A stretch of DNA of 64,000 nucleotides from Verrucomicrobiota bacterium (lineage in GTDB: Bacteria; Verrucomicrobiota; Verrucomicrobiia; Verrucomicrobiales; Akkermansiaceae), in assembly GCA_004293445.1 (NCBI GenBank), contig RDYP01000001.1, forward strand, positions 334,754 through 398,753. The letters are read 5' to 3'. Below are positions 9,112-64,000 of the stretch, piece after piece; the stretch's first letter is position 1; each line of letters starts with the position of its first letter. The notes beneath the pieces were generated by a model, which worked only from the letters and a program-made list of their open reading frames with translations, was not told the DNA's origin and did not search any database. The position numbers were made by a program, and so were the translations under genes.

Positions 9112-9519
9112 TCAGCGCCAGCGCCAGTCGAGCACCACCTCGATATCGGGATGCAGGCTGTGATGCACAGGACATCCATGACCGGTGCTCTCCAATAGTC
9201 GGCGCTCCGGATGATCGGCCGGCAGGGGCATATCGATGTCCACTTCCAGTCGGGAAATCCGTCGTGGCGTGTCGCTCGACATGTGCTTGCGAACCGCAAT
9301 TCGCAGGCCTGCAAGATCGACCTCCTTTCGCTTTGCGACGATGCCCATTACCGTGGCCATGCAAACACCCAGCGCCGTCGCTACCAAATCCGTCGGCGAA
9401 AACGACTCGCCTCGACCTTGATTGTCCACCGGCGCATCCGTCTCCAATTCACGGCCCGACGGCATGTGCACCGCCTGACAGCGAAGCTCTCCTTTGTAGT
9501 CGATCTCAATCTCCACCAT
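9112..9519 (-). CDS. OsmC/Ohr family protein (135 aa)
   Basis: Small OsmC-fold protein. It shows the family's helix segment with the first conserved Cys (SPTDLVATALGVCMATVMG, Cys at residue 53) and the second Cys late (GHGCPVHHSL, Cys 116). This pair is the peroxidatic and resolving site for thiol-dependent reduction of organic hydroperoxides. The start at 9519 (MVEIEIDY) gives the expected length. Its start lies 14 nt inside the 3' end of the kinase gene on the same strand, so it is probably translationally coupled to it. This links an oxidative-stress enzyme to the ECF sigma/kinase set; that functional link is inference. Confidence 0.9.
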   Translation of the reverse strand: MVEIEIDYKGELRCQAVHMPSGRELETDAPVDNQGRGESFSPTDLVATALGVCMATVMGIVAKRKEVDLAGLRIAVRKHMSSDTPRRISRLEVDIDMPLPADHPERRLLESTGHGCPVHHSLHPDIEVVLDWRWR

Positions 9520-37806: not shown

Positions 37807-37813
37807 GCCCCGC

Positions 37814-37829
37814 ATGTTTTAACGGGTAG
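37814..37829 (+). promoter_or_regulatory. regulatory element copy 3 (TTTTAACGGGTAG)
   Basis: ATGTTTTAACGGGTAG, starting 8 bp after the stop of the giant gene and 64 bp before the next start. This short gap has no visible terminator, so the element probably marks a new transcription start for the downstream four-gene run. Confidence 0.7.
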
Positions 37830-37893
37830 GCACTGCGACTCTCCTTGCTAAGGTTGGCGCGCTCCAAAGCATCGGTCCCGCTCCTGCCCGTTC

Positions 37894-41394: not shown

Positions 41395-41411
41395 GCTCAA
41401 CCACAGGTCAC

Positions 41412-46900: not shown

Positions 46901-46986
46901 TCGATTTCTCAGATGGCCCTCTCGGCTTCAATGTCTATCGCGAGATCTGTCTGCTGCGCTTTGCCAGGGCCGCATCGAAGCAATGA
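43951..46986 (+). CDS. GH106-type alpha-L-rhamnosidase (1011 aa)
   Basis: Secreted glycosidase with a signal peptide (about residues 1-25). The GH106 hallmark opens the mature protein (GVWWHWMGSNVSRAGITRDLEGFKDAGIASATIF). The catalytic barrel has GIDVGIHNCPGYTSTGGPWI, MLLDSYEAGTPSWTPLMPREFEQRRGY and ESNLRFVCEPYGGPFHTGEV. A galactose-binding-like sandwich (about 650-780, GTAVYRAKVDL, LGEVKHLARVRVNGKDLGVVW) and a further C-terminal sandwich follow. I chose ATG 43951 because it starts the signal peptide; the frame is open further upstream over the preceding gene. It overlaps the next gene by ATGA. It would remove terminal alpha-L-rhamnose. Confidence 0.85.
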   Translation: MRAFHGLLSLTAGALLLASPYRSDAGSDPEQAFLSPSQDAKPGVWWHWMGSNVSRAGITRDLEGFKDAGIASATIFGMADVCTPWAGHIENSPNDGLLAFTDPWWRLVRHAAEEGKRLGIDVGIHNCPGYTSTGGPWITPELSMQQIFHSRVDIGGGQAFSGTLAKPEIDPRGDVLFPMLNKETGVVEKPVIEARKTYWQDIAVLAVPAEGVIAKDRIIDLTEKMDDSGRLRWTPPESSKWSIYRFGHTTMGALTQPNQWEIMGLECDKMSEKAVTFHLKHVLGKLKEHLGPLVGTGLQHMLLDSYEAGTPSWTPLMPREFEQRRGYGIIEFLPVLAGRVVVSDGETAKFRADFDRTIADLYRDVLFKVMQSMLKESNLRFVCEPYGGPFHTGEVAPHVERVMTEFWSADRFNATVQDGIMKAGEGRSHNILEAEAFTGAPDKCSWIETPGWLKTVGDEAYLAGINRFILHTNPHQPWDDRFKPGVTMGQWGAHFGRTQTWWEPGKAWIAYLTRCQALLQWGRPSPSNASSFIPIDGNANPRSVHRSDGKVHLFFIAVPASDQGKALASFDVGSMQPELWDPVTGEQRNLTDFRIDGNTVRVPLDFAPGQSHFVVFRKAAAKPDALTRNFPQATKSMKLDASWRVKFDPKWGGPQQVVTFQKLTDWTQHSDPGVRYYSGTAVYRAKVDLDTVPEDASFLDLGEVKHLARVRVNGKDLGVVWCAPWRVELPSGLLKSSGNLIEIAITNVWANRLIGDEQEPDDCEWLTGHVNTGKYLKRFPDWFVAGKSRPSSKRFGFTTWNYFNKDSRLAPSGLIGPVQVLAANWKQAASEVPNGAFAETSVNRASEDAFEAELPTAEQLVPVASMSASGDTQSSDDAGTLRDGTTRNGSGTAETLDDAKTFRACGKGTSLLFKLDERGVALGEIQSFAGHRDARASQAYTVWIAKADAPDQFTKVANARVVSQGGATRMRVPVNESKVVAVRLDFSDGPLGFNVYREICLLRFARAASKQ

Positions 46987-47018
46987 ATTTCCTCCCCATT
47001 CCCCCACCCGTTTCATCC

Positions 47019-50000
47019 ATGAAATTTCTCTCACCCGCGGTGCTTGCCTTGGCACTCGCCTCTGTATCCACAGCTGCCACACCCCGCATTGAGCAGCTCG
47101 ACGACTGCAAGCTCGTATGGGAAGGCCCCAGTAAAAACCAATCGTTCGATTCGATGCCTCTCGGCAATGGAGACGTCGGCGTCAACGTCTGGTTCGAATC
47201 CAATGGCGACATCCTCTTCTACGTCTCGAAAGTCGATTCCTACGACTCAGAGCACCTGCTGCCGAAACTCGGCCGACTGAGGCTGCGGACCGAACCCGCC
47301 CTCGACATCCACAAGGTCAAGACGACCCTGCTGCTCGATCAAGCAGCAGTGGAAATTCAAGCGGGTGATGCCAAATTCCGCGTCTGGGTCGACGCCCATG
47401 CACCTGTCGTCCGACTGCAAGGCCACTGTCCGACACCGCGCAAAGTCAGCATCGCCGCCGAATCGCTCCGCTCCTGGCAGAATGCGGCCGATCCCCTTCC
47501 CGGCTCAGGAACAGCCGCGCTGCTTTTCCATGATTCATCCGATCACGTCGCTTGGTGCTATCGGAATCAGTCCTCCATCTGGGCAGCCAGCTTCGCCAGC
47601 CAGAATTCGCCGGAGATGGTCGCAAAAACCAAGGATCCCATTCTTCACCGCACCTCCGGATGTCTGCTCAAGGCAAAGGGCTTCAAGCGGCTCAACCCAA
47701 CCACCATCGCCTCGCAAGGGGCGATTTCAGGCATCGATGCCAGCGTGCGGGTTCTAACAGGCCAACCGGAATCGCCCGAGGCATGGAAGGCGGAGGCAAC
47801 GAAACCCGTGAAGTCTGACTGGAAAGCCCACCTCGCCCACTGGCAGGAATTCTGGAACCGCAGCCACATCTTCATTCCGAAGGCCGGCGAGGGCAGCTAC
47901 GACCTCTCCCCTTACCGTTTCACCCAGTTCACCCAGTCGCGCGATGTCTACGCAGGCCACGACAAGGTCACCGCCTCGGACAATGCCTTCCAGATTACTC
48001 AGCGATACGCGCTGGAACGCTTCTGCCAGGCCATTGCCAGCAGAGGCGCGGTGCCTCCGCCCTACAACGGCTCCATCTTCACCATGGACATGCCCGCCGG
48101 TGTGATGGGCTTCGACAGACCGAAGGAAACACCGATCTCTCCCGATGGTCGCGACTGGGCGCAACTCTCTTTCATGTGGCAGAATACCCGCCATCCCTAT
48201 TGGTCGATGCCCACCCGTGGCGATTACGACACCATCCTTCCCGGCATGAACTTCGTCCGCAACGGACTTGAGATCGCCCAAGACCGCTGCAAAAAGCTCT
48301 ATGGCGTCGATGGCGCGGTGATCTTCGAAGCCAGCTGGTATCACAATGTCGGCGTCTTCCCCTTTGAAGGGATGCCCGGCCACCTCCGCTTCCACCAGCT
48401 TGCGACCATCGAACTCCCCGCCATCATGGCGGAGACCTACGCGCACACCCGCGATGAGAATTTCCTCCGCAACACCCTGCTGCCCTGTGCCGAGGAAGGC
48501 CTGAAGTTCTACTTCAACCGCTTCACCAAGACCGACCCGAAAGGTAAGATGCTCATGGAAGGCGTCGGCTGCGCGGAAACCTATCAAGGCGTCACCAATC
48601 CCGCCACCGAGATGGGCTGCATGAAATACCTGCTCGATCTCCTCCTCTCTTTTCCCATCGACGCTCAGCGCCGCACGACATTCAGCCGATGGCGCGCCAT
48701 GCTGCCCGAGGTTCCCACCCGCCGAATCCGCGGAATGGATCTACTGGCGGTCGGTGAGGTGTATGATCCGGGTCGCACCGACTGCGAAACGCCCGAGCTC
48801 TACTCGATCTATCCCTTCCGCCAGGCATGGGTCGGCACACCGGACAAGCTGGCAATGGCTCGCCAATCTTTCCACGTCCGGAATTCCAGCCTTGATGGAA
48901 CGATCGATTGGCAGCCGGTCGAAACGGGTGGCTGGCAGTCCGCCCCCGTTCAAGCAGCCCACCTCGGCCTTGCTCGCGAAGCCGCACGCCTCGCCAGCAT
49001 CAATTTCCATGACCGCTTCGTCCAATGGTCGGGCAATATCGCCAAGGGGCCAAGCGGCGAGCTGCTGCGTGGAACCACGGAAAGCCCGGGCTTCGTAGTG
49101 GGTGATCCCAAGTCCGGCCTTTCCTTCCCCTATCGTCCACGCCCGAAATTCCCCGCCTTCTGGGAGTGCAAGATGGACGGCACACCCGACAACGACCACG
49201 GTGCCAACTCGGTTAACACGCTCCAGGCGATGCTGCTGCAGGCCGACGGCGACAAGATCCATCTGCTCCCCGCATGGCCGGAGGATTGGGATGTCACTTT
49301 CAAGCTCGCCGCGCCGAAGAGAACCACGGTTGAAGGCAGCTACCGCGATGGCCGCATCGTTTCGCTCAAGGTCACACCGGAATCACGCCGCAAGGACATC
49401 ATCGACCACAGCACGCGGGAAGCGCGGCTCCAGACCATGATCGATATCGCCTGCAACGACCGCAACTGGCTCTTCCAGCTGCCACCCATGCTCGATGGCT
49501 TACCCACCCCCGGTCCGGTCACTCGGGACTGGATTGCGGAATTCGGCGAGAGCCTGACCGACACCCGCGGCACCTTCTGGCCTGGCTGCACCTTCCGCGA
49601 CCACATCCTCTACGTGCACGGGAAAAACGCCCTGCCGCAGATCCCGGCCAAGGTGCTCAAGGAGACCAAGCTCTCTGACACTTTGGTGAAGGTCGAATAC
49701 GACCAAGCGCTCGAAGCCATCATCCTGGCTACCGTCTCACAGGGCTCTCTTACCGGCGGCAAATCCGACACCACCGCCGATCTCGGCGAAGCCAAGACCT
49801 TCGACCGCGTCGAGTTCACCATCGACCACCCGAACTACCTCCGAGGCCAGGCAAAGTCCTTCCGCCTCGAGGTCCTGCGGCCCGACGGCCAGTGGCAGAT
49901 CGCGCATCAAGGCAATCTCTACGGCATGATCTATACAAAGCGCTTTGCCCCGACCACTGCCACCCAGGCACGCCTTGTGATCGACGCGAAAGTAACTCAG

Positions 50001-50027
50001 TTCGACCTCTTCCCTCCCGGTCTCTGA
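47019..50027 (+). CDS. DUF5703/GH95-like secreted glycosidase (1002 aa)
   Basis: The N-terminus resembles the DUF5703 sandwich (LVWEGPSKNQSFDSMPLGNGDVGVNVWFESNGDILFYVSK), which precedes GH95-like (alpha/alpha)6 barrels. The barrel follows at about 300-790 (FMWQNTRHPYWSMPTRGDYDTI, YGVDGAVIFEASWYHNVG, NDHGANSVNTLQAMLLQADGDKIHLLPAWPEDWDV). The C-terminal ~150 residues look like an F5/8-type sandwich. I prefer ATG 47019 (MKFLSPAVLALALASVSTAA) as signal start; ATG 46983 overlaps the rhamnosidase stop and would put a Pro-rich stretch in front. Exact specificity is unknown, probably a terminal deoxy-sugar or galactose. Confidence 0.75.
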   Translation: MKFLSPAVLALALASVSTAATPRIEQLDDCKLVWEGPSKNQSFDSMPLGNGDVGVNVWFESNGDILFYVSKVDSYDSEHLLPKLGRLRLRTEPALDIHKVKTTLLLDQAAVEIQAGDAKFRVWVDAHAPVVRLQGHCPTPRKVSIAAESLRSWQNAADPLPGSGTAALLFHDSSDHVAWCYRNQSSIWAASFASQNSPEMVAKTKDPILHRTSGCLLKAKGFKRLNPTTIASQGAISGIDASVRVLTGQPESPEAWKAEATKPVKSDWKAHLAHWQEFWNRSHIFIPKAGEGSYDLSPYRFTQFTQSRDVYAGHDKVTASDNAFQITQRYALERFCQAIASRGAVPPPYNGSIFTMDMPAGVMGFDRPKETPISPDGRDWAQLSFMWQNTRHPYWSMPTRGDYDTILPGMNFVRNGLEIAQDRCKKLYGVDGAVIFEASWYHNVGVFPFEGMPGHLRFHQLATIELPAIMAETYAHTRDENFLRNTLLPCAEEGLKFYFNRFTKTDPKGKMLMEGVGCAETYQGVTNPATEMGCMKYLLDLLLSFPIDAQRRTTFSRWRAMLPEVPTRRIRGMDLLAVGEVYDPGRTDCETPELYSIYPFRQAWVGTPDKLAMARQSFHVRNSSLDGTIDWQPVETGGWQSAPVQAAHLGLAREAARLASINFHDRFVQWSGNIAKGPSGELLRGTTESPGFVVGDPKSGLSFPYRPRPKFPAFWECKMDGTPDNDHGANSVNTLQAMLLQADGDKIHLLPAWPEDWDVTFKLAAPKRTTVEGSYRDGRIVSLKVTPESRRKDIIDHSTREARLQTMIDIACNDRNWLFQLPPMLDGLPTPGPVTRDWIAEFGESLTDTRGTFWPGCTFRDHILYVHGKNALPQIPAKVLKETKLSDTLVKVEYDQALEAIILATVSQGSLTGGKSDTTADLGEAKTFDRVEFTIDHPNYLRGQAKSFRLEVLRPDGQWQIAHQGNLYGMIYTKRFAPTTATQARLVIDAKVTQFDLFPPGL

Positions 50028-50643: not shown

Positions 50644-52065
50644 TCATCCATCCACGGCAACCGGTTCGCCTTCGACGCTGAGTTCAATCACGCGGAAGGG
50701 AGCATGAGCACCTCCTTCGATAGGACCAATTTGCCATTCCCCCGGCCCGCACTGGACGGCCACTTTGATCTTCGGGGAATCAAGCAGGCAGGCACCCAGC
50801 AAACGATTCTTCAGCGCCGGAATCAGCAGAGGTGCTGACGCATTCGACGCACGAACGATCAGATAGAGCTTTCCCTTCCGGCTGGTGACATAGCCCCAAG
50901 CAGGTGCCTCCTTGAACGGACTCTGCGAGACACCCTCAAAAGCAGCGCGGTTCGGATTCACCCACGCACCGATCTTCTGCAGGTAATCGCTGGCCATCGG
51001 ATGAAATTTGCCCGTCGCATCCGGGCCGACATTCAACAGGTAGTTCCCACCCAACGACGCAATGCGCGCCAAGGTTTCGATGTAGTGCTCCGGGGTTTTG
51101 ACCAGGTCCGGAGTGTAATTCCGTGGGTTGTATCCCCAGAAAGCTCCCATGTTCCAACAATACTCCCAGCGACCACCCGGCGGAGCATGAGGAATCTCGT
51201 TCTCGTAGGTATTGAAGTCCGAACGATCCAGACCCAGTCGATTGTTGATGACCACGTTCGGAAGCAACGAACGAATGATTTTCTCCGACTCTTGGGCATC
51301 GGCATCCGTCCACTTGCCCATCATGTGCCAAGTTCCGTCGAACCAGAAGATATCGGGCCGATACCATTCCGCGAGCTCCTTGATCTGTTTCTTGGCCAAC
51401 GCCGCAATCTGAGCATCGGTCGCGTAGGGCTTGGGTCCGAGACTGCGATAATCAAAGCCCCCATCGATCGCCTTCTGGTCCGCATCATCAAAGCCCTTCG
51501 GCGAGCCTCGGAACTCCAGAGGAGAATAGTAGATACCGAAAAGCAGCCCCTCTTTTTGGCAGGCTTTCTTCAAAGCAGCGAGCGGATCAGGGCCCTTGTA
51601 GGCACCACTGGCGAAGAGATGATAGTTGCTCGCCTTCGTCGGATAAATCGCGAAGCCGTCGTGATGCCGCGCGGTGATGACGATGTAACGCATCCCCGCC
51701 TCCTTGGCGCTGCGAACCCAGGCGTCCGCATCGAAGTTGCTCGGATTCCAAGCCGCCGCGGTCTTTGCATATTCTTCATAAGGGATCCGTGCGTTCTCCT
51801 GAATCCACTCGGCACTCCACAGGTCCTGCCCCTGGTAAGTGCCACCATACACCGAATAAACACCCCAGTGGAGGAAGAGTCCGAACTTGGCCTTGTTCCA
51901 GCGGTCGAGCGCTGCGACGCGACCCGGCGACTGCGATTCTTCCGAGCGGGTCTTCGCATTGTCGGGAATCGGTGCCGCGACGGCCTCGGCGGAAATCGCT
52001 TGGCCTTGGACGAGGCAAGCGTGCAGGGCAATGAGAAATCGAAACCGGAGAGAATGATGCCGCAT
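50644..52065 (-). CDS. GH29 alpha-L-fucosidase (473 aa)
   Basis: Canonical secreted retaining fucosidase. A signal peptide (MRHHSLRFRFLIALHACLV, cleaved near AISAEA) precedes the GH29 barrel: WNKAKFGLFLHWGVYSVYGG, YIVITARHHDGFAIYPTKAS, GIYYSPLEF, IFWFDGTWHMMG with the nucleophile Asp 243, GRWEYCWNMGAFWGY and ASLGGNYLLNVGPDATGKF. A short beta-sandwich ends the protein. I chose ATG 52065 because it begins the signal peptide; an in-frame upstream start at 52140 would add 25 residues. Regulatory copy 4 lies upstream. This is the only glycosidase of the locus on the minus strand. Confidence 0.93.
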   Translation of the reverse strand: MRHHSLRFRFLIALHACLVQGQAISAEAVAAPIPDNAKTRSEESQSPGRVAALDRWNKAKFGLFLHWGVYSVYGGTYQGQDLWSAEWIQENARIPYEEYAKTAAAWNPSNFDADAWVRSAKEAGMRYIVITARHHDGFAIYPTKASNYHLFASGAYKGPDPLAALKKACQKEGLLFGIYYSPLEFRGSPKGFDDADQKAIDGGFDYRSLGPKPYATDAQIAALAKKQIKELAEWYRPDIFWFDGTWHMMGKWTDADAQESEKIIRSLLPNVVINNRLGLDRSDFNTYENEIPHAPPGGRWEYCWNMGAFWGYNPRNYTPDLVKTPEHYIETLARIASLGGNYLLNVGPDATGKFHPMASDYLQKIGAWVNPNRAAFEGVSQSPFKEAPAWGYVTSRKGKLYLIVRASNASAPLLIPALKNRLLGACLLDSPKIKVAVQCGPGEWQIGPIEGGAHAPFRVIELSVEGEPVAVDG

Positions 52066-52195
52066 GGCGATTGAATGAGTGGTTGGATGAGTCGAACATG
52101 GGAGCGGCGTGCGGAAACCCAAAACCGCACACCGCCCCAAAGCCCGCGGGTTGGCCGGAACGCCTGCAGCATGCTCTTTTTCAGCAGCAACTGCC

Positions 52196-52241: not shown

Positions 52242-52907
52242 TCAGCCCTTCCGTAACTTGGCGACCGCTTCGGATCGTGAGTGCACTTGGAGTTTCCCGT
52301 AAATGTTCCGGATGTGGAAGTTCACGGTGTAAACGCTTAGCTCGAGGCGATCGGCAATCTGCTTGTAAGGAAATCCCTCCAGCACCAGATCCAGCACCGC
52401 TTGCTCACGATCGGTCAGGCTCACCTCCGCCGCCTGGGCAGGTATGGGAGCCACGGTGGGATGGCTGAAAGTCTGCACCACCATGCGCGCAATCCTCGCC
52501 GACATCGGAGATCCACCAGCCGCGACTTCGCGAATCGCAGCAACGAGTTCCCGCCCACGGACCGGCTTGTGAAGATAACCGCAGGCGCCCGATTTCAAGG
52601 AATTGAAGATCGCTTCGGTGTTGTCGAACACCGTCAACATGACCACCAACACGCCGGGAATCCGATCGACCAAATGCCTGACACATTCCACGCCACTCAT
52701 GCCAGGCAGATTGATGTCCATGAGCACGACCTGAGGTTGCAGCAAGGGCAGCTCATCGATCGCCTGCTCGGCATTCGCGCACGATGCCACACAGATGATC
52801 CCGGGAACTCCCGTAAGAGTCTTTTCCAAGGACTCCCTCAAGCCGCCCTGATCCTCGACCATGGCGACTCGGATGGGATGGGCGTATGGGGCGGCGGAGC
52901 TGCTCAT
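52242..52907 (-). CDS. NarL/FixJ-type response regulator (221 aa)
   Basis: Receiver domain at about residues 12-130, with acidic pocket VEDQ, phospho-acceptor VVLMDINLPGMSG (Asp 64), TVFDN and the conserved Lys in YLHKPVRG. A LuxR-type helix-turn-helix follows at about 160-219 (LTDREQAVLDLVLEGFPYKQIADRLELSVYTVNFHIRN-type segment). It lies 27 bp after the kinase gene on the same strand, so they form a two-component pair. Proposed (inference) to bind the TTTTAACGGGTAG elements around it. Regulators of this family usually bind as dimers to short inverted or direct repeats. Confidence 0.95.
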   Translation of the reverse strand: MSSSAAPYAHPIRVAMVEDQGGLRESLEKTLTGVPGIICVASCANAEQAIDELPLLQPQVVLMDINLPGMSGVECVRHLVDRIPGVLVVMLTVFDNTEAIFNSLKSGACGYLHKPVRGRELVAAIREVAAGGSPMSARIARMVVQTFSHPTVAPIPAQAAEVSLTDREQAVLDLVLEGFPYKQIADRLELSVYTVNFHIRNIYGKLQVHSRSEAVAKLRKG

Positions 52908-52934: not shown

Positions 52935-55859
52935 TCAAAGGACACTTGAATTGCGGACAGGAACCGCGAGACGAACGAGAGTCCCACGACCGGAATCGGA
53001 AGCCAAGACATCGCAGCGCCCGCCAACCTCGGCGGCGCGGTTTCTCATATTCTGCAGGCCATTCCCCTGCCGCAGTCCAGCGGTGGGAGGAAGACCGCGA
53101 CCGTCATCGGCGATCTCGAGCAGGATGTGTCCGTCTTCCAGACCGATTCGCAAGGTGACCAAGGAAGCTGAGGCATGTCCCACCACGTTGTGAAGCGCCT
53201 CTTTCACGATCATCAAAAGATGGTGCCGAAGCCGGGCCGACAGTCGCAGTTCAGGCATGGATTCCGTGCTCGCAAAATGACAGCGCACCCCCGCCATCGC
53301 GAGATAGTCCTCGGCATAGCCATGCACGTATCGCGCAAATTCCTCAAAAGTGTTGTTCGCAGGATCCACCGCCCAGACCACCGTATCGAGCTCCTTCGCC
53401 GTCGCATGGGACACGTGGAAGATACGATCCAGCTGCGCCCGCATTTCCTCGGGATCGTCCATGGCGCGCTCGACCTGCTCGGTGAGTAGGCCGATCTGGG
53501 CGAGATTTGCCCCGATGTTGTCATGAAGATCCTGCGCAATGCGCGAGCGCTCCTGCTGCAGCGCATGCTCGCGCTCGAGTCGAATCCCCGCGAGATAACG
53601 CCAACTACCGAAAAGGAGGCTTGCGATGACCACCACGATCAGCAGCCAAAACCACGGCTGCTTCCAAACCGGGAGTTGAATGCTCATTTCCACCCTCTGA
53701 GAAACACCGCGCTGCCGCTCCTCCACGGCGATCCTCCAGACATTCTCACCTGCATACGAGATCTTGCCAATCTTGCAGCCTGTCGCGGCTTTCAGGACTG
53801 GCGTCAAACGACTGTAAACAAAAAGATCCCCATCCCGTGCACCGGCATCGCTGAGCTCGATCTCCATCCCGCCCTGTAGGCTGGTAACCCGCTGAATTTC
53901 CGCGGCACCACAGTAAATGTGAAGGTTGGATCCAATCAACACCGGACGGTCCGGCGTTCGATCGAGATCGGTAAAGCGCAGATGCTGAGAGGCCGAAGGT
54001 GCCAGCGAAGGCGTCGTCCAGGATCCCTTGGCAACGCCGAGGAATCGATCGTCCCAAAACGACCACACCGCGTAACGTCGATCAGGCAAAAGCCCGGCGT
54101 CTTGGAAATCCAGCGTAACCTTGCGCTCCGTCCCTCCAGGATTCCACAGCAGCGCCACCGACATGCGGCCCCATTCACGATCGACATGCCCCACCAAGCG
54201 CGGGAACTCATGACTCGTGCACAGATCCATCACCTCGGTGCGTTCCCGCGCCGGAGGGGTCATGGTTTCAACGTTCCGGAGTAGAGGCTTGAACTCCTCC
54301 AAGTACCAAGGATCCGAAGTGATGGCATTGCCGCAGGACAAGCCCACCATGCTGATCCAAGTACGAACGATCGGCCATCCACCCGCGATGGAACTGATAT
54401 TTTCCAGATCGGTCCCGAGAAAATAACCATCGCTGTCCACCACACCCCAGCGTCCTTGGATCGATAGACAACGCAGAACATCATCGAACACCGGGCGCAG
54501 CGTGCCGCGAGTGGACTCGACTCCTATCCGATGGGCATCCACGAGTCCCACCGACGCACGATTCGGCTTGAGATCGTTGTTGAGTAGATAAGCTCCATCG
54601 CCCACCGCTTTACGGATCGAAGTGAAGCCATCCCGAACCACCTCGAACGAAGTCTGCCTTTCGTTGCCCAAGGCATACTGAGTCAGCTTCTGAGTATTGA
54701 GTTTGAAATACGAATACCCCTTGCCCGACAGGACCCGCGCTTGATTGACAAGCTTGTCCCACGGAACGGCAAATCCGTTCTTGTCGACCGATTCCAAAAG
54801 CAGCCCCGGCCGCGCTCCGGCCGACTCGATCTGCTTCGCGTAAAAATCCAATCCCTCCGGAAAGCGCTCGTTCGACTCTTTCACGCCGCTCGGATCCTCG
54901 TAGCCACCGTCGATCTGAATGACCGCAGGCCGCAGCCGATCCGGATAAGTTCGGGTGGAATCGACCACCGCGAGCACATCCTTCCCCGATACCTGCCCTC
55001 CTAGAAATTGCCAACTATTCCAACCCGAGACGGCACCATGCTGCGTGCGGGCATCATGCGAGACACCCACCCAATGGCTCCAGTGGCCCAAGGCGATTCG
55101 CGGCATCTCCGCAAACAGAGCGACCTGCTGCCCCCAGCGCGTCTCGCCCGGGTCGACCCTCACCCGACTCATGTCCGCGGCATACGTAAAAGCGACACGC
55201 CCCTCTGGGATCAAGGTGAGGGAGGCGTTCACGTAGGCGATGGGCGACCCCACCGGCCCCCACAGAAACCCAAGGCCGTTCTTGCGATACAAGCCACCGT
55301 TCTCGAAGACCGATACGGTTTGACTAGCGTCTGACAATCGCACCAGCGGCGGCGTTGTTTGAACACTATCATTGAGCCGGGTGATCCACCAATCGCCAGG
55401 TCCATCCGCGACCGAAAACTCCATGCGCATGGGCGTGACGGAAACCAACTGAAGCGGCTGCTTGCTGCGGTTGGTGATGCCCGATTGCATCAGCACCACC
55501 GCAGTCCCCGGGATCGTTCCCATACGATGCACCAGACTCACCTCTCGCTCGGGAAAGTGAATGGTCCTGGAGGTGATGGATGCCACGCCGAGCGGCGTCA
55601 TCTCCGTCTCCGCTGCCGCGGTCGTTGGGAGCAGATCCCCCTCGCTGGATACGAGATCCAGCTCCTGCCCCTCCACTACGACTTTCGCAGAATATCCACC
55701 TCGCCAGTCGGCGAATCCATCAGCCTCCAAACCGATGGATCTTCCACCGGCCTCGAAGCCCGCCTGCAATCCCCATGCGACCGTAGGGCCGGGAAAAAGC
55801 CCGGCCAGCAAGCCGAGCCAGGCCACCCATCCGCGGAATGCCCTCACCGTGACCATCAT
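52935..55859 (-). CDS. sensor histidine kinase with a GH36-like alpha-galactosidase ectodomain (974 aa)
   Basis: A signal segment (about residues 4-29) precedes a GH36-type beta-supersandwich (about 30-265) and a TIM barrel starting GWNSWQFLGG (279-288), with IQIDGGYED (Asp 317), PGLLLESV, YFKLNTQKL and VVDSDGYFLG (Asp 475, 477). A C-terminal sandwich runs to about 725. One membrane helix (about 735-752) leads to a HisKA_3 dimerisation domain (QDLHDNIGANLAQI, His 779) and a HATPase_c domain (KEALHNVVGHA, DDGRGLP, GNGLQNMRNRA). GH36 enzymes use an Asp nucleophile after this Lys; here Asn 388 (AAT) stands there, and the usual Asp-Asp of the IDDGY motif is Asp-Gly. The ectodomain is therefore probably a non-catalytic sugar sensor. 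The start at 55859 begins the signal; an in-frame start at 55979 adds 40 residues. Confidence 0.88.
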   Translation of the reverse strand: MMVTVRAFRGWVAWLGLLAGLFPGPTVAWGLQAGFEAGGRSIGLEADGFADWRGGYSAKVVVEGQELDLVSSEGDLLPTTAAAETEMTPLGVASITSRTIHFPEREVSLVHRMGTIPGTAVVLMQSGITNRSKQPLQLVSVTPMRMEFSVADGPGDWWITRLNDSVQTTPPLVRLSDASQTVSVFENGGLYRKNGLGFLWGPVGSPIAYVNASLTLIPEGRVAFTYAADMSRVRVDPGETRWGQQVALFAEMPRIALGHWSHWVGVSHDARTQHGAVSGWNSWQFLGGQVSGKDVLAVVDSTRTYPDRLRPAVIQIDGGYEDPSGVKESNERFPEGLDFYAKQIESAGARPGLLLESVDKNGFAVPWDKLVNQARVLSGKGYSYFKLNTQKLTQYALGNERQTSFEVVRDGFTSIRKAVGDGAYLLNNDLKPNRASVGLVDAHRIGVESTRGTLRPVFDDVLRCLSIQGRWGVVDSDGYFLGTDLENISSIAGGWPIVRTWISMVGLSCGNAITSDPWYLEEFKPLLRNVETMTPPARERTEVMDLCTSHEFPRLVGHVDREWGRMSVALLWNPGGTERKVTLDFQDAGLLPDRRYAVWSFWDDRFLGVAKGSWTTPSLAPSASQHLRFTDLDRTPDRPVLIGSNLHIYCGAAEIQRVTSLQGGMEIELSDAGARDGDLFVYSRLTPVLKAATGCKIGKISYAGENVWRIAVEERQRGVSQRVEMSIQLPVWKQPWFWLLIVVVIASLLFGSWRYLAGIRLEREHALQQERSRIAQDLHDNIGANLAQIGLLTEQVERAMDDPEEMRAQLDRIFHVSHATAKELDTVVWAVDPANNTFEEFARYVHGYAEDYLAMAGVRCHFASTESMPELRLSARLRHHLLMIVKEALHNVVGHASASLVTLRIGLEDGHILLEIADDGRGLPPTAGLRQGNGLQNMRNRAAEVGGRCDVLASDSGRGTLVRLAVPVRNSSVL

Positions 55860-56003: not shown

Positions 56004-57479
56004 TCAAGCACGGCGCCGACGCAGGAGACAAAGCAAACCCAGACCACCCATAAGGGCCGATGCGGGCTCGGGAACCACAGTAAGGGTACCGGTGCTATTG
56101 TCGAAGGTTGCGGTGTAGCCGCTCGCGAGGCCGGTCGGAACCACGGAAGAGAAGCTCCCACTGTAGGAATCGAAATCGAAAATCTTCAACGAACCCATCG
56201 TATTGAAACCGGACTGGAAGAGCAGATTCAAGGTTCCGTTGAACTGAACGCTCTGGGTCCCACTCGCGGCCGCGACAGCTAGGTCAAAATTCCCGGAGTT
56301 GAACGAGTTGACCTCGAAGTCGGAAACACTACCAGCGTCGAGGACAAGATTACCAGTCAGAGTCATGGTGCCCGGGCTGTTACCGGGAGCAAAGACCCCG
56401 TTATTCTGAATAGTAACAGTACCAACAGTGCCGGCACCACCGAGCGTAGCTCCCGATTGCACGATAGTAGCACTTGTCGCGATGCTTCCATTGACCACGA
56501 GCTTACCGCCGGAAACCGTGGTAGCACCGGTGTAGCTGCTGTTGGCACCCGAGAGTTCCATGGTTCCAGCGCCGGATTTGCTGAGGCCCAGAGGGCCATA
56601 TGTTTCTGTGATGTTCCCGCTGATGAGCAAATCCGTAGCTGCCGCGCCATTGGCGACGTTGGCCGACAAGCTGGTGTAGCCACCGTCACCGCGAAGATTG
56701 AGTTGCCCGGCGATCGTTGCGGTATCCGCACTTGGGTTGGTATTCAGGTTGGTATGGTTCCACTGGAAACCGCTGCCCTGCAGCGTGCCGCCAGTCATGT
56801 TGACACCACCCGAGATACCCCAAATGTGACTGCCACCGGTGTCGGTCACCATGCCGCCGTTGATATTGACAGAACTGGGCCTCCAACCGCCTTGATAGCC
56901 AAGACCGCTGCCATCACTCGTGATGGAAAGAGTCGTGCCGGAATTGACAGTGACCGCGCCGTCGAAGAAACCGTAGCCGCCATTACCACCAGACAATTTG
57001 AGCGTGCCGCCATTGAGATCTAGTCCTCCCCGGAAGTAGCTGTGAACAGTGACTTCCATCGTACCCGCTCCCTCCTTGATGATTCTGGCAGCGGAATAGG
57101 TGTAGTCAGGATTGCCAGGCAGAGCCCGAAGACTGGTGTTGACGAGGAGGTCCGTCGCGGAGCTGCCCGTAACGTCCGCCACGGTGAAGGTGGTAGGGTC
57201 GGCGATATTGAACCACGACGAACCAGTGATGGTCGATGGAGCAGAGCCACTGACCGCGACTCCGGTGATAACCGATGCGCCATAGGCATTGTAATTGCCC
57301 GAACCGCTGACCGTTCCGCCTTGGAGCAGGAGATTGGCACCGGTGTAACTGCCATTGCTCAAATTCAGGGTTTCCCCGACACCTACAGTATAATCAACGG
57401 CATCGGCGGAACCGGCGATGACCAGGGTTGCGGCTAGGAGGGCACGTATTTGCAAGGAGGAACGAGAGCTTGATTTCAT
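56004..57479 (-). CDS. PEP-CTERM protein with autotransporter-associated repeats (491 aa)
   Basis: Signal peptide (about residues 8-27, ending AGSADA), then beta-strand repeats of the autotransporter-associated type (IIKEGAGTMEVT, LSKSGAGTMELSGANSSYTGATTVSGGKLVVNG). The C-terminal domain contains FNGTLNLLFQSGF and FDFDSYSGSFSS. A PEP-CTERM tail follows: VPEPASALMG, a short hydrophobic helix, then LLRRRRA. In exosortase systems this tail directs sorting to the cell surface; no exosortase gene is in the window. Regulatory copy 5 lies 76 bp upstream, and the kinase and regulator genes follow on the same strand. A surface component of the sensing system is possible. Confidence 0.9.
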   Translation of the reverse strand: MKSSSRSSLQIRALLAATLVIAGSADAVDYTVGVGETLNLSNGSYTGANLLLQGGTVSGSGNYNAYGASVITGVAVSGSAPSTITGSSWFNIADPTTFTVADVTGSSATDLLVNTSLRALPGNPDYTYSAARIIKEGAGTMEVTVHSYFRGGLDLNGGTLKLSGGNGGYGFFDGAVTVNSGTTLSITSDGSGLGYQGGWRPSSVNINGGMVTDTGGSHIWGISGGVNMTGGTLQGSGFQWNHTNLNTNPSADTATIAGQLNLRGDGGYTSLSANVANGAAATDLLISGNITETYGPLGLSKSGAGTMELSGANSSYTGATTVSGGKLVVNGSIATSATIVQSGATLGGAGTVGTVTIQNNGVFAPGNSPGTMTLTGNLVLDAGSVSDFEVNSFNSGNFDLAVAAASGTQSVQFNGTLNLLFQSGFNTMGSLKIFDFDSYSGSFSSVVPTGLASGYTATFDNSTGTLTVVPEPASALMGGLGLLCLLRRRRA

Positions 57480-57550
57480 CGATTTTGATGGGGTTGGAAG
57501 GTGATGATGTAGCCGCTGGACTTATTTCACATTCCTCCCGATTAAGAACA

Positions 57551-57582
57551 CTGCCTACCCGTTAAAATGTCCGGGTAGGCAG
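57551..57582 (-). promoter_or_regulatory. regulatory element copy 5 within a perfect 10-bp inverted repeat
   Basis: The element core is at 57555-57570, read on the minus strand as ACATTTTAACGGGTAG. It sits in a perfect inverted repeat: CTGCCTACCC (57551-57560) and GGGTAGGCAG (57573-57582), with a 12-bp spacer. It is 76 bp from the PEP-CTERM start. Only this copy has both full arms. Confidence 0.72.
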
Positions 57583-57689
57583 CAGAAGAATGCCTGTGAC
57601 ATCAAGCATCTCGGGGCCCAATTCTTAAATCAGAAGGAAGGAAACGACCACACGATATGACTACTTTCCTCTCTCTGATTAACGGCATT

Positions 57690-60600
57690 TTACTGAGCGC
57701 GGACTTGAATGAAGAGCTTCGTGTTGCTCAGAAGCGCAGGACTGAGAGTTACCGGCACCGTTTCCACTTCACCATTGAGACTTGGGTTGCCTTGGACAGC
57801 ATTACCGTCCTCAGCCCACGTCCCGAGATCGGTGGAATACCAAACGCTGTAGCTCAAACCAGTAAGCGACTGCTGACGACGGGTGTAAGAGAAGGTCCCT
57901 GTGGTCGCGTCGAGCGCCACCGAGATCGCATTGACGGAGGCCCCACCCGTGGGATTCAGGCCAAATGCGTATTCCTCCTGATTGGTGAGACCGTCGTTAT
58001 CGTCATCATCGTTCTCGCCACCGATCACGCCGTTGGCAGTCTTCCAGTTGTCGAAGTCGGTAGCAGTGACGGTGTAGGTAAGATTTCCGTCCGCCTCGGT
58101 GAAGACCCACTTGGCATTGGTAACCGAAAGCTCCCAACTGCCGGGGGTAACTTCTGTGAAGCTATCAGGACCACTGGTGATCGCGGTAGGCGCGAGGACT
58201 GGTGCCGTGCCGGTCAGGGTGCTAAGTTGGAAAAGATTCCAAACATTGCCATCGGTCGTATCGGCAGCGCTGAGGTCGAGGTTGACCGCGCCAAGGAAGG
58301 AAAGCGAGGAACCCTCCGAGCCGGATACCGAGTTCGTTGCGCCATTCGTGGTCGGACGGAAGAGCAAGCCAGAAGTCACTTCAAGCGCACCCTCACCAAC
58401 CACCGTATTACCGGTGTAGGTATTGTTTCCGGAAAGGACCAGCTTGCCGGAACCCGACTTGATCAAGCCTGCAGCGAAGACGTTGCTGATGTTTCCACTG
58501 ATCAGCAGGTCCGTCGCAGCAGTACCATCTGCAACGCTGACGCCGAGGTCGGTGGAACCGTAATCTTTACGAATCAGCAAATTGCTCGAGATCGTCGAGG
58601 TGCTCGCGCTCTCGCTGCTATTAAAGGCACTGCTGATGACGTGGTAGGTGCCACCGCTCATGGAGCTACCCGTCAAATTGACCGTGGCACCACTCACCCA
58701 GCTCTGGACCGTATTTTCCACGGTGCCGTCGTTCACCTCAAGATAGCTGACACGCGATCCGACACGGCCAAGACCGGTGAAGTCCAAGCCCGCGAGCTTC
58801 AAGGTCGCGCCACTCGCTACCGTCAGACTTCCGCTCACTGCCGAGATATCGTAGCTGGACGAAGCAAGCTCAAGCGTGCCCGCGGTGACGGTGGTGCCGC
58901 CGGTGTAGGACTTAACACCGCTGAGGATCAAGCTACCTGAGCCCGTCTTCTCGAGCCCAGCATTACCCGCAAGATTCGCGGAGATCGTGGCGTTGATACC
59001 GTTGGCGACACTCACAAACGGAATCCCCGAGGACTCCAGCAACAGAGTATTGGAACCCGCTAGGGTGTAATCCGAGACATCGAACACAAGATTGCCGATG
59101 CTTCGGTTGCTGTCCAAGTTCACGATCGCACCCGTTGCGGCACCGAAGGTAGCGGTCGCATCCGTACCAACCGCGACAACGTCGGAGAGCCAATTCGCCG
59201 CATCGCTCCAATTGCCATCGGTGAGCGATGTCCAGGTGCCGCTCGCCTGGGTGACCACGAGCGAGCCTCCACCCGTGAAGAACTCACCGTAGGTGGGGTG
59301 GGTGGAATCATAGGTTCCAGCCGGGAGGGAACCACTGCCATCGATATCGATACTACCGACGATATCTGCACCGACGAAGTTCAGATCCATCTTCGCGTTG
59401 GTGCCAATGACGACAGGCGCCGCATCATCAAGGACCGGATTCGTAAGAGAAACAGTGCCTTCATTGACAACGGTTGATCCCGTGTAGCTGTTCGCACCGC
59501 CAAGCACCATCGTGCCCGCGCCGTTTTTGGTAATACCCATACCCGCATTGGCCTGGGTAATCGCCGCACTGACCAGCAAGTCGGCGGAGGCATCACCATC
59601 GGCCACATTGAAGACGATTCCAGTTGAACCACCATCGGCGCGCATACGGATGCGACCGCCGATGGTTGCAGTGCCCGCGCTGGCGTTCGTGGTGACAGGG
59701 GTATTAGCCCATTCCAATTGGGGTCCGCTTGCATCGCTGGTCCCGCTATTGCTTTGCAACGTGCCGCCAGTCATGTTCACCCCGCCGGAGAAATTCCAAA
59801 CGTGCATGGTTCCCGCACTGCTAACCGTACCCCCGTTGATATTAAGAACGGTCACCTTGGCACCCGGGTTGTATCCAAGGCCGGTACCGTCATCGTTCAC
59901 CAAGCTAACAGTGGTACCGTTATTCACGGTGAGAGCGCCTCGGACGCGGCAGTTTCCTCCATTGTTTCCATCCAGAATCAAGGTGCCTGCATCGACCGTT
60001 GTCCCACCGGTGTAGTAACTGAAATTGGTGAATCTGAGCGTTCCGTTACCGATTTTGGTCAGGCCCCAAGAACCGCCATCTTCATAGAAACCGGTGACCG
60101 CGAGCGTGTCGGCATCGACACCAACAGTGGTGTTGCTTCTTAGAGCGAAGCCTGGACCGTTTCCACTGTTCCCATAAGTCATGGTCAGGGCATTGTCGCC
60201 GCTGATGCTACGCAACGCGCCTAGGCCACCCACGCCCGAACCCCAGATGTGGAAGTGCTCGTTAAGGGAAATACCACCTTGCAATGCGAGGGTTGCGTCG
60301 TTCTGGATAAAGCTCATCGTGTTGCCATCCCAGCCGCCCGCACCAAGCGCATTGCTACTGGCTGCAACCAAGGTGCCCGCCTGAATATTGGTCTGACCGT
60401 CGAAGGAGTTGGAACCGGAAACAAGCATCTGGCCGGCACCGGTCTTGATCAGATTCCCACGCGGCACCCAGCCGACCTCCGGCCATTGATCGCTGAGGTT
60501 GGCGTTAACCAGAAGGTCAGTCGCCGCCGCGCCGTCAGCCACGTCGATACTATGGTTGCCACCGCCGTCTCCGCGCAGGTTCCATGATCCCGAAATGGTG

Positions 60601-62057
60601 TTGGTGCTGTCGCCGGAAGCACTGAAAGGAGTCCCTGTGCCGCCATTCCATTGACCGGCGCCCATCATCGTAGCACCGTTTTTCAGAACGACGGTCATGG
60701 CACTTCCGAAACCGAGGTGCGTGCCACTTGCGGCGTCAAAGGTACCGCCATCGACGGTGAGGCTTGTGGCCGGGCCATTCCAGCCGAAGCCCGAACCATC
60801 CCCACCGATGAACTTCAATGTGCCACCGGAGTTCACAGTGACCGCGCCGCGGAGCCAGCCGTAACCACTGTTCTGGCCGACCAATTCGAGCGTGCCGTTA
60901 TTGATCGTCGTGCCACCCGTGTAACTCTGCCAACCACGGAATTGCATGGTGCCGGCACCGGTTTTGGTGAGGGAACCGCCGCTTGCCCAGCCCGTGAAAT
61001 TGAGCGTCGAACCCGAACCTACCTCAAAAACGCCGCTGCTCAGCGTCACCTGATTCGCGCTGATGGTCGATGTGACGCCACCGGTGGCGGTGGTGGTGCC
61101 ATTGATTCCCCAACTGCCCCAGGTGGCATCCGATCCCGTGCTGGCGAGTTCGCCTCCAGCGAGGGTCAGGTTGCTGATGTTGGAGTGGGCATTGATGGTC
61201 AGCTTGCCACCGGTGTTGATGGTGGTGCCATCAATGGCTTGGTAGTAGTTGACGCTTCCAGCCTGATTGACCGCGACGGTCCCTCCGTTGTTGATGGCGA
61301 TCGTTCCAGCGCCAGAATTGCCCGCGGCCAATTCGCCGTTAATCGAAAGTGTATTGATTGTGGGCGAATAGGAATTCGATCCGACAAAGTTGTAGCTGCT
61401 TCCATTCCAAACCGACGAACCCGTGTCCGCCGTGATGATCCCACTCGCCGCAGAAATCGCTCCGGTCTGGACAGTGAGATAAGGATTAGTCGGTCCGGTG
61501 AAATGCAATTGGGAACCGGAGCCACCGATCACAGCAAACCCGTTGAAGCTACTCTGATTGGTAACGATGTCTTGAAAGGTTGATGCCCCGATTCCCCAAG
61601 AGACCGAAGCTCCGTTGCCGTAAGAACCGGTCGCATTCACAGCATTGGTGATCGGAGTGGCTCCCGGGATGGGCTGCCCCCCACCTGCTGTCCAAGAACC
61701 ATCAGCAGTCGCCACGAAAGACCCATTAACGCCACCGCCCCAAGTGGCATTACCATTCTGGAGCGTCACGGTAGCGGGAGCTACCAGAGTCAAACCCGAG
61801 AGCGTGGACAGATCGAAGTGGATGTATTGCCCATCGCCAGCGCTCCCACGCCAATACAAACGTCCCCAATCATTCGCGCTATTGAAAGTGCCGCTGCCTC
61901 CAACGTAGTCCGCCCAGTCCGTGGCATTGATGGTATGAGTAGTGACATCCGTAGCCTGATTCCCGTCGAAGGTCAGAATCTCGGCATTGACGGAAACGGT
62001 GCATGCAGCACCGATCACAGCGGTTACGCAAAGGAAGGGATTGAAGCGGAGTTTCAT
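57690..62057 (-). CDS. giant secreted autotransporter-repeat protein with STDL-type C-terminus (1455 aa)
   Basis: A signal peptide (about residues 8-25, ending SVNAEI) is followed by an N-terminal beta domain (about 26-200) and then about 1100 residues of autotransporter-associated strand repeats (LTKTGAGTMQF, INNGTLELVG, ITKNGAGTMVLGGANSYTGSTVV). Several modules recur in other proteins of this window. The last ~120 residues (NWKTANGVIGG, acidic DDDDNDGLTNQEEYAFGLNP, YSVWYSTDL) match the C-termini of the 30838, 37894 and 17568 genes, so no PEP-CTERM tail is present. No TTTTAACGGGTAG element lies upstream. Probably a fibrous surface or matrix protein; no enzymatic motif is visible. Confidence 0.82.
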   Translation of the reverse strand: MKLRFNPFLCVTAVIGAACTVSVNAEILTFDGNQATDVTTHTINATDWADYVGGSGTFNSANDWGRLYWRGSAGDGQYIHFDLSTLSGLTLVAPATVTLQNGNATWGGGVNGSFVATADGSWTAGGGQPIPGATPITNAVNATGSYGNGASVSWGIGASTFQDIVTNQSSFNGFAVIGGSGSQLHFTGPTNPYLTVQTGAISAASGIITADTGSSVWNGSSYNFVGSNSYSPTINTLSINGELAAGNSGAGTIAINNGGTVAVNQAGSVNYYQAIDGTTINTGGKLTINAHSNISNLTLAGGELASTGSDATWGSWGINGTTTATGGVTSTISANQVTLSSGVFEVGSGSTLNFTGWASGGSLTKTGAGTMQFRGWQSYTGGTTINNGTLELVGQNSGYGWLRGAVTVNSGGTLKFIGGDGSGFGWNGPATSLTVDGGTFDAASGTHLGFGSAMTVVLKNGATMMGAGQWNGGTGTPFSASGDSTNTISGSWNLRGDGGGNHSIDVADGAAATDLLVNANLSDQWPEVGWVPRGNLIKTGAGQMLVSGSNSFDGQTNIQAGTLVAASSNALGAGGWDGNTMSFIQNDATLALQGGISLNEHFHIWGSGVGGLGALRSISGDNALTMTYGNSGNGPGFALRSNTTVGVDADTLAVTGFYEDGGSWGLTKIGNGTLRFTNFSYYTGGTTVDAGTLILDGNNGGNCRVRGALTVNNGTTVSLVNDDGTGLGYNPGAKVTVLNINGGTVSSAGTMHVWNFSGGVNMTGGTLQSNSGTSDASGPQLEWANTPVTTNASAGTATIGGRIRMRADGGSTGIVFNVADGDASADLLVSAAITQANAGMGITKNGAGTMVLGGANSYTGSTVVNEGTVSLTNPVLDDAAPVVIGTNAKMDLNFVGADIVGSIDIDGSGSLPAGTYDSTHPTYGEFFTGGGSLVVTQASGTWTSLTDGNWSDAANWLSDVVAVGTDATATFGAATGAIVNLDSNRSIGNLVFDVSDYTLAGSNTLLLESSGIPFVSVANGINATISANLAGNAGLEKTGSGSLILSGVKSYTGGTTVTAGTLELASSSYDISAVSGSLTVASGATLKLAGLDFTGLGRVGSRVSYLEVNDGTVENTVQSWVSGATVNLTGSSMSGGTYHVISSAFNSSESASTSTISSNLLIRKDYGSTDLGVSVADGTAATDLLISGNISNVFAAGLIKSGSGKLVLSGNNTYTGNTVVGEGALEVTSGLLFRPTTNGATNSVSGSEGSSLSFLGAVNLDLSAADTTDGNVWNLFQLSTLTGTAPVLAPTAITSGPDSFTEVTPGSWELSVTNAKWVFTEADGNLTYTVTATDFDNWKTANGVIGGENDDDDNDGLTNQEEYAFGLNPTGGASVNAISVALDATTGTFSYTRRQQSLTGLSYSVWYSTDLGTWAEDGNAVQGNPSLNGEVETVPVTLSPALLSNTKLFIQVRAQ
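60781..61263. repeat. block nearly identical to 63518-64000
   Basis: Collinear with the right end of the window at an offset of 2737 bp, with about 20 mismatches by eye over 483 bp. It codes the same repeat region (around LTKTGAGTMQFRGWQSYTGG) of two adjacent paralogues. The partner block continues past the window edge, so the full extent is unknown. Confidence 0.85.
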
Positions 62058-62217
62058 AAGATTTTGAGATTAGTGGGAGATTAGGTTTAGACCGTTTTGG
62101 GAAGCCGAGGGAACGCTTTGTGCGGCCTACGCATGAGAAATTACTGAATACTCGGGGAGTTTTGATGGAAGAGCTCGAAAGTCTCCGGCGCAGGATCGCC
62201 AGTGAAGTCACTCTTCA

Positions 62218-64000
62218 TCAGGGACGACGACGACGAAGCAGACAAAGGATGCCAAGACCACCCAGCAATGCCGGAGCAGGCTCGGGAACCACGGTCACAA
62301 TGCCGGTGCTGTTATCGAAAGTTGCGGTGTAGCCACCCGCCAAGCCACTTGAAACGACCGAGGAGAAGCTTCCGCTGTAGGAATCGAAATCGAAGATTTT
62401 GACCGACCCCATCGTGTTGAAACCGGATTGGAAGAGAAGATTCAGCGTGCCGTTGAACTGAACATTCTGGCTCCCGCTCGCAGCAGCGACGGCAAGGTCG
62501 AAATTCCCCGAGGTGAACGCATTGATTTCGAAGTCGGAAATACTTCCAGCGTCGAGGACGAGATCGCCCGTCAGGGTCATGGTCCCCGGGCTATTGCCCG
62601 GAGCGAAAACGCCGCCACTCTGGACGTTGACCGCTCCAACAGTGCCTGCACCGCCAAGAGCTCCACCCGCTTGCACAATCGTGGCACTCGTTGAGATGTT
62701 GCCATTCACGACAAGCTTTCCGGCGGAGACGGTGGTAGCCCCGGTATAGGTGCTGTCTTGAGTAAAGTTCAGCGTGCCCGCACCAACCTTTGTAATACCC
62801 CAAGAGCCACCATCTTGATAGAAACCAGTGGCTGTCAGCGTGTCAGCATCCACACCGACAGTGGTGTTGCTTCTGAGAGCGAAACCAGGGCCGCTGCCGC
62901 CGCCACCGTAGGTCATGGTCAGGGCGTTGTTGCCACTGATGCTACGGATCGCGCCGTTGCCACCGACACCCGATCCCCAGACGTGGAAGTGCTCGTTAAG
63001 GGAAACACCGCCCTGCAAAGCGAGGGAGGCTCCGTTCTGGATGAAACTCATCGTGTTGCCATCCCATCCGCCAGTACCGAGTGCATTACTACTGGCCGCC
63101 ACAAGGGTGCCCGCCTGAATATCGGTCTGGCCATCGTATGAGTTGGAACCGGCGAGCACCATGGTACCCGCGCCGGATTTGACCAGATTGGAACGAGCCA
63201 CCCACCAAGCATCCGGATATTGATCGGAGAGATTAGCATCGACCCGAAGATCAGTTGCCGCTGCGCCGTTCGCCACATTGAAGGTGTGATTGGCACCATT
63301 GTCTGAACGCAAGGTCCATGATCCGGAAATCGTATTGGTGCTATCGCCCGAAGAACTGAAGCCGAGCAATCCGTCGCCATTCCACTGCCCGGAGCCAGTA
63401 ATTGTGCCGCCGTTGCTGAGAGCAACCGTCAAGTAACTGCCAAAGCCAACGTGCGCCGCACCCGCCGTTGTATCGAAAGTACCGCCATTGATGGTAAGGC
63501 TACTGGGCGAACTGTTCCAGCCGAAGCCGGAACCATCCCCACCGGTGAACTTCAATGTGCCACCGGAGTTCACCGTGACCGCACCGCGAAGCCAGCCATT
63601 ACCGCTGTTCTGGCCGATCAATTCGAGCGTGCCGTTATTGATCGTCGTGCCACCCGTGTAACTCTGCCAGCCACGGAATTGCATGGTGCCGGCGCCGGTT
63701 TTGGTGAGGGAACCACCGCTTGCCCAGCCCGTGAAATTGAGGGTCGAACCCGAACCCACGTCAAAAACGCCGCTGCTCAGCGTCACCTGATTCGCGCTGA
63801 TGGTCGATGTGACGCCACCGGTGACGGTGGTGGTGCCATTGATTCCCCAACTGCCCCAGGTGGCATCCGATCCCGTGCTGGCGAGTTCGCCTCCGGCGAG
63901 GGTCAGGTTGCTGATGTTGGAGTGGGCATTGATGGTCAGCTTGCCACCGGTGTTGATGGTGGTGCCATCAATGGCTTGATAGTAGTTGACGCCTCCAGCT
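62218..64000 (-). CDS. PEP-CTERM autotransporter-repeat protein, 5' end beyond the window
   Basis: The frame is open from the stop at 62218 to the window edge. It continues upstream of the first in-frame GTG (63786) in a sequence that matches the paralogue at 57690-62057 (NYYQAIDGTTINTGGKLTI), so the N-terminus lies outside. Visible: repeats (GTLELIGQNSGNGWLRGAVTVNSGG, GFGWNSSPSSLTINGG, SDQYPDAWWVARSNLVKSGAG), the GWDGNTMSFIQNGASLALQGGVSLNEHFHVWGSG-type module, and a C-terminal domain close to that of the 56004-57479 gene (SGNFDLAVAAASG, FDFDSYSGSFSS), ending VPEPAPALLG and LLRRRRP. The protein is thus a chimera of the two neighbours: repeat body from one, sorting tail like the other. Confidence 0.88.
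   Translation of the reverse strand, partial: AGGVNYYQAIDGTTINTGGKLTINAHSNISNLTLAGGELASTGSDATWGSWGINGTTTVTGGVTSTISANQVTLSSGVFDVGSGSTLNFTGWASGGSLTKTGAGTMQFRGWQSYTGGTTINNGTLELIGQNSGNGWLRGAVTVNSGGTLKFTGGDGSGFGWNSSPSSLTINGGTFDTTAGAAHVGFGSYLTVALSNGGTITGSGQWNGDGLLGFSSSGDSTNTISGSWTLRSDNGANHTFNVANGAAATDLRVDANLSDQYPDAWWVARSNLVKSGAGTMVLAGSNSYDGQTDIQAGTLVAASSNALGTGGWDGNTMSFIQNGASLALQGGVSLNEHFHVWGSGVGGNGAIRSISGNNALTMTYGGGGSGPGFALRSNTTVGVDADTLTATGFYQDGGSWGITKVGAGTLNFTQDSTYTGATTVSAGKLVVNGNISTSATIVQAGGALGGAGTVGAVNVQSGGVFAPGNSPGTMTLTGDLVLDAGSISDFEINAFTSGNFDLAVAAASGSQNVQFNGTLNLLFQSGFNTMGSVKIFDFDSYSGSFSSVVSSGLAGGYTATFDNSTGIVTVVPEPAPALLGGLGILCLLRRRRP
63518..64000. repeat. block nearly identical to 60781-61263
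   Basis: Second copy of the ~96% identical block, running into the window edge. Identity is higher toward the edge than at 63518-63620, which fits a conversion tract centred outside the window. Confidence 0.85.

Follow-up and report, generated by a model that had tools for sequence, protein, structure and literature searches.

Gene organization and domain structure

The window (the whole stretch of DNA that was analysed, 64,000 nucleotides from a Verrucomicrobiota bacterium) contains, on the minus strand at 52935–55859, an open reading frame for a sensor kinase of 974 codons (974 aa). It starts with the ATG at 55859, with AAGG located 7 nt 5' of this codon. An in-frame extension to a TTG at 55979 is possible and is unnecessary for the frame.

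The encoded protein may be divided into five parts, all on the same strand. The signal peptide (about residues 1–29; 55773–55859) is recognized by direct reading, from a basic n-region, a hydrophobic core and AWG, its cleavage site not being a program prediction. It is followed by a periplasmic GH36-like ectodomain (about residues 30–735; 53655–55772), probably composed of an N-terminal beta-sandwich, a (beta/alpha)8 barrel and C-terminal beta domains, and by a single transmembrane helix (about residues 736–756; 53592–53654), which was assigned from the sequence and falls within a helix at 735–798 in the AF2 model. The cytoplasmic part consists of a HisKA_3 dimerisation and phosphoacceptor domain (residues 770–833; 53361–53552; Pfam 5.2e-10) with the phosphoacceptor at His779, and a DesK-like HATPase_c catalytic domain with its N and G boxes (residues 880–969; 52953–53222; Pfam 4.2e-9). 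The features of a HisKA_3-type kinase (phosphoacceptor His and HATPase N and G boxes) are therefore present, and His779 is invariant. An earlier note on this DNA had placed a signal peptide, a GH36 module, one membrane helix and a HisKA_3/HATPase kinase in this single frame, and reading of the sequence, Pfam and searches of the PDB all confirm the arrangement.

The kinase gene lies in a run of genes of one direction, in the order PATR surface-protein genes, kinase, regulator and GH29 fucosidase. Immediately upstream is a gene for a PATR-repeat, PEP-CTERM surface protein (56004–57479, minus strand; Pfam). On the 3' side, separated by 27 bp, is a gene for the cognate response regulator, of NarL/LuxR type (52242–52907, minus strand; Response_reg 3.5e-22, GerE 1.9e-18). 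The next gene in the same direction encodes a GH29 alpha-L-fucosidase (50644–52140, minus strand; Alpha_L_fucos 2.9e-72), which is a possible target or operon partner of the kinase-regulator pair. The opposing genes encode a SASA-type esterase, GH95, PATR, GH29-like, GH106 and DUF5703 proteins.

Several other genes in the window may be mentioned. Genes for at least five surface proteins with PATR repeats (one of them PEP-CTERM) are interspersed with glycosidase genes at 30838–43901 and 56004–63786. The DUF5703 protein at 46983–50027 (plus strand) has weak similarity to GH95 and is possibly an undescribed glycosidase relative. TamB and Omp85 genes are found at 2925–8380. The gene at 9506–12136 (minus strand) combines a Ser/Thr protein kinase with PEGA repeats and an FGE-sulfatase domain, and adjoins a sigma-70-like gene at 12123–12791. 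Elsewhere in the same genome there are eight other HisKA_3 kinases of 680–760 codons (L116–L122 and L125); five of their ectodomains were read by eye, and to the eye some look OB-fold-like (L117–L119) and others discoidin-like (L121, L122), none resembling GH36.

Relationship of the ectodomain to GH36

Pfam recognizes the kinase domains of the window protein, and no GH36 family scores above the cut-off. Automatic annotation would therefore probably label the protein a plain sensor histidine kinase. The relationship to GH36 emerges from comparison with solved structures. A PDB search with the single window protein finds the GH36 alpha-galactosidase TmGalA (1zy9/5m0x) at 8e-5, and the same search with a profile of 27 fused ectodomains finds it at 3.6e-14. 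A profile of kinase-free relatives matches GH36 structures at 3.4e-34, and two of the four kinase-free relatives scanned first exceed the Pfam Melibiase cut-off. Between the fused family and the kinase-free relatives, hhalign gives an E of 1e-151 over 687 columns.

The AF2 models, one for the ectodomain and one for the full protein, were built from a seven-row input and are poor (pLDDT 51 and 54), and for this reason pocket geometry is not drawn on here. With these low-confidence models, Foldseek nevertheless ranks GH36 structures first for the ectodomain and DesK first for the kinase, and VIA gives a Z of 13.5 over 350 residues (rmsd 14) against GH36.

Active-site residues

The nucleophile of TmGalA is D327, and D387 acts as its acid/base (PMC6089974). 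The C4-OH of the sugar is held by D220 and K325 and the C3-OH by K325 and R383 with Y191, while D221 holds the C6-OH and W257 packs against the sugar (PMC5132143, PMC6089974).

Codon 388 of the window protein (54696–54698, minus strand, as are all codons given here) is AAT, placing Asn at the position of D327, and codon 448 (54516–54518) places Glu at the position of D387. Thus the two residues that an active retaining GH36 requires, the nucleophile Asp and the acid/base Asp, are both replaced. Codons 317–318 (54906–54911) specify Asp-Gly at D220–D221, by which the C4-OH ligand is kept and the C6-OH ligand lost, and Leu354 occupies the position of W257. Lys386 (54702–54704) and Arg444 (54528–54530) correspond to K325, the C3/C4-OH ligand, and R383, a C2/C3-OH ligand; both are kept. 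By alignment with TmGalA, then, both catalytic Asps are changed in the window protein and the C3/C4-OH ligands are retained. The earlier note had read Asn388 at the nucleophile and Gly318 at the second Asp of IDDGY, and both readings are correct. It overlooked, however, the acid/base change to Glu448.

This Glu leaves room for residual or altered chemistry in the window copy. The ectodomain might accordingly be a slow or altered glycosidase or transglycosidase, operating through Glu448 or through substrate assistance at Asn388, with signalling coupled to turnover. It is true that, with Glu448, a carboxylate remains at the acid/base position throughout the orthologue group, and that some paralogues retain one of the two Asps. 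Against this, the replacements at both positions are varied in the fused family (see below), the two Asps never occur together, and no substitute pair is common to all; moreover, in TmGalA the D387A change alone lowers kcat/Km by about 3100-fold (PMC6089974). A working enzyme is for these reasons considered improbable.

Kinase-fused copies and kinase-free homologues

The search for GH36 modules fused to HisKA_3 that the earlier note had proposed yielded about 39 such genes in Verrucomicrobiota, spread over at least three family-level groups; the genome of the window has three, the window copy and two more. Because the proteins L127 and L130, each from a different genome, are nearly identical, the number of independent fused copies is about 38. 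The same architecture in so many genes argues against chance and against a one-off fusion of frames.

Searches of Verrucomicrobiota gave a first set of 27 distinct copies fused to a kinase, along with 20 usable homologues that lack one. All 20 kinase-free homologues have both catalytic Asps, and none of the 27 fused copies does. A second set, gathered after this pattern had been noticed, added 12 fused copies, none of which has the nucleophile Asp or both Asps (0/12 in each case), and one complete kinase-free copy, which has both. In total, both Asps are found in 0/39 fused and 21/21 kinase-free copies. The nucleophile Asp is kept in only two of the 39. The earlier note had held that an intact Asp at 388 in close homologues would count against its reading; the two copies concerned, L013 and L023, are distant fused paralogues with Ala at the acid/base position, while Asn is found at 388 in all five of the nearest orthologues.

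At the nucleophile position the fused family has N, S, G, Q, Y, F, L, A or E, and at the acid/base position A, T, N, V, M and others. In the alignment of the first set, 42 columns are invariant in the 20 kinase-free enzymes, and the eight of these least kept in the 27 fused copies are C281 (the Cys of GWCSW), W354 (W257), N388, G318 (D221), E448, 327, 321 and 389. In contrast, most structural Gly, Trp, Pro and Arg columns are kept in 74–100% of the fused copies. The loss thus targets catalysis and is not scattered over the fold.

All 27 fused copies of the first set have lost the pocket Trp and Cys, which would be in keeping with a dead GH36 that binds no sugar and serves as a scaffold for sensing a partner protein (a surface PATR or transport protein) or envelope stress. 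The sugar-gripping residues would, however, be needless in a pure scaffold, and the equivalents of K325, R383 and D220 are kept in 25/27, 25/27 and 22/27 of the same copies, the pocket being nearly invariant among orthologues as well.

Origin and selection

Trees of 47 and 62 sequences were constructed with SH-aLRT support. The fused copies form one clade in both (support 100 and 99). The sister of this clade is formed by the kinase-free L035 (=L092) and L093, in which both Asps are intact and the N-terminal part carries an inserted NPCBM domain. The deepest fused branch is L142:778-4605 (G856:C335), a 1276-codon frame with a kinase. It has an NPCBM domain at the corresponding place (1.5e-32) and an intact IDDGY, and has lost both catalytic Asps. 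Since its branch is long, the basal placement leans on the common NPCBM insert as much as on the support values. L142 looks like an intermediate on the way from the secreted enzyme to the receptors. The simplest order of events suggested by these sequences would be that a secreted enzyme of NPCBM-GH36 type was fused to a kinase and lost catalysis, and that NPCBM then disappeared before the gene multiplied.

One locus, L084 (G013:C14), has a tandem pair of fused kinase genes, with a separate regulator behind each. They belong to different branches of the fused clade (L036, L033), and the pair is therefore not a recent tandem copy.

Relative to the orthologue L010, first, second and third codon positions differ by 18/11/54% in the ectodomain and by 16/9/59% in the kinase, and four other orthologues behave alike. 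By this measure the ectodomain is under as much constraint as the kinase, and purifying selection is strong; a pseudogene reading was rejected on these codon-position differences. The members of the six-member orthologue group are 67–76% identical to the window protein. Across the group the pocket residues listed are invariant except for Gln/His at position 284, compared with 55% invariant columns overall. Change dominated by third positions, together with a nearly invariant pocket, implies that the disabled enzyme, pocket included, is retained for some role.

An artefactual fusion, or a gene in decay, is hardly credible. No point in favour of this was found, and the spread of about 39 fused genes over three or more family-level groups, the strong purifying selection and the conserved regulator partner all speak against it.

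Neighbouring genes

The regulator lies directly 3' of the kinase in all fused loci of which the contig reaches that far (26/26 and 10/10). One of the kinase-free loci, L097, is also adjoined by a regulator.

With regard to glycosidases, L004 has a 76% identical copy of the GH29 directly after the kinase-regulator pair, and the paralogues of the same genome adjoin GH78 (L002/L070) and GH16 (L003/L071). Fifteen regions from the same lineages, taken as controls, are also rich in glycosidases, however, so that glycosidase neighbours are weak evidence for local regulation. Enrichment of GH29 beside the fused kinases is not significant (5/70 versus at most 1/67 neighbours, p 0.21 or 0.06).

PATR genes are commoner beside the fused kinases than among control neighbours (15/70 versus 3/67, Fisher p 0.004, neighbouring genes not being independent). 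This excess would suit the sensing of a partner protein by a scaffold. Set against the kept sugar ligands, such sensing is judged about as improbable as a slow enzyme, and a glycan receptor is preferred.

A probable receptor derived from a dead enzyme

The window gene is best read as encoding a membrane sensor histidine kinase in which a catalytically dead GH36 would serve as the periplasmic glycan receptor of a two-component system (probability about 0.8). The proposal of the earlier note that an enzyme had been turned into a receptor is strongly supported by the single origin of the fusion, the loss of at least one catalytic Asp in 39/39 fused copies versus 21/21 intact kinase-free ones, the sugar-gripping residues, purifying selection and the adjacent regulator. 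Its choice of an alpha-galactoside-like end group as the ligand may not hold. Because the equivalents of D221, which binds the C6-OH, and of W257 are lost, the ligand may well be other than a standard alpha-galactoside end group. As a guess from the pocket residues, a sugar of galacto configuration in which the C6 group differs or is missing, or else an extended chain, might be expected.

In the mechanism envisaged, a periplasmic glycan end or fragment would settle, uncut, into the old active-site cleft, and its binding would shift the C-terminal beta domain and the single membrane helix. The shift of the helix would change autophosphorylation of His779 in the kinase dimer, and phosphotransfer to the NarL-type regulator would alter how neighbouring genes for glycan degradation and surface proteins are transcribed.

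Pockets differ among the fused paralogues, which probably report different sugars. For the family as a whole, it is likely, though with somewhat less assurance than for the window gene, that a secreted NPCBM-GH36 glycosidase was fused once to a histidine kinase, lost catalysis, and then multiplied with changes of the pocket to report different glycans. If true, a repertoire of receptors has been derived from one dead enzyme. The natural series from active enzyme through a basal dead fusion with NPCBM to diversified dead receptors would show the way in which a catalytic domain turns into a signalling receptor. To our knowledge, carbohydrate sensing in glycan-degrading Verrucomicrobiota is poorly described, and a class of sensors would be added for them. 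As the pocket is inherited from a well-studied enzyme, the ligand guesses and the inactivating substitutions are directly testable.

Comparison with known systems

The window protein shares with TmGalA-type GH36 alpha-galactosidases (1zy9, 5m0x, 6lcj) the sequence family, the GW.SW start, the IDxGY and YFK motifs and the C3/C4-OH ligands. It differs from them in that both catalytic Asps, W257, D221 and the Cys of GWCSW are replaced, and in the addition of a membrane-anchored kinase. The kinase core and output are those of NarX/DesK-type HisKA_3 kinases with NarL/LuxR-type regulators, but the sensor is a former glycosidase of about 700 residues. Klotho proteins likewise are dead glycosidases, of GH1, that form parts of receptors; they are animal co-receptors for FGF hormones, of an unrelated family and pathway.

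In Bacteroides hybrid two-component systems such as BT1754, a periplasmic glycan sensor and histidine kinase controls adjacent polysaccharide-utilisation genes (PMC3404733). Such glycan-sensing kinases, situated next to degradation genes, are well known in Bacteroides, and the likeness to the proposed receptor lies there. These systems, however, are one-piece hybrids with AraC-type output and non-GH36 ectodomains, whereas the kinase and its NarL-type regulator are separate here; the hybrids are marked by a single protein with kinase, receiver and AraC HTH, a combination absent here, where the regulator is a LuxR-type protein of its own.

In the open-access literature searched, no report was found of a GH36-kinase, or of any other glycosidase-kinase, and none of a family whose kinase-fused members have all lost the catalytic pair. 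A precedent for a disabled glycosidase used as a sensor is the anti-sigma factor RsgI6 of Clostridium thermocellum, of which the extracellular GH10 module has very low activity and still binds polysaccharide (PMC4711584). That report concerns the very low activity of the GH10 and not a family-wide loss of the catalytic pair (PMC4711584). RsgI6 differs further in being GH10 rather than GH36, an anti-sigma factor rather than a histidine kinase, and from a Gram-positive organism; by Pfam, the RsgI_N anti-sigma domain is absent from the window protein, the cytoplasmic part of which is the kinase. It is nevertheless the closest precedent, a membrane signalling protein with a nearly inactive glycoside hydrolase as its outside sensor, much as is proposed for the window protein.
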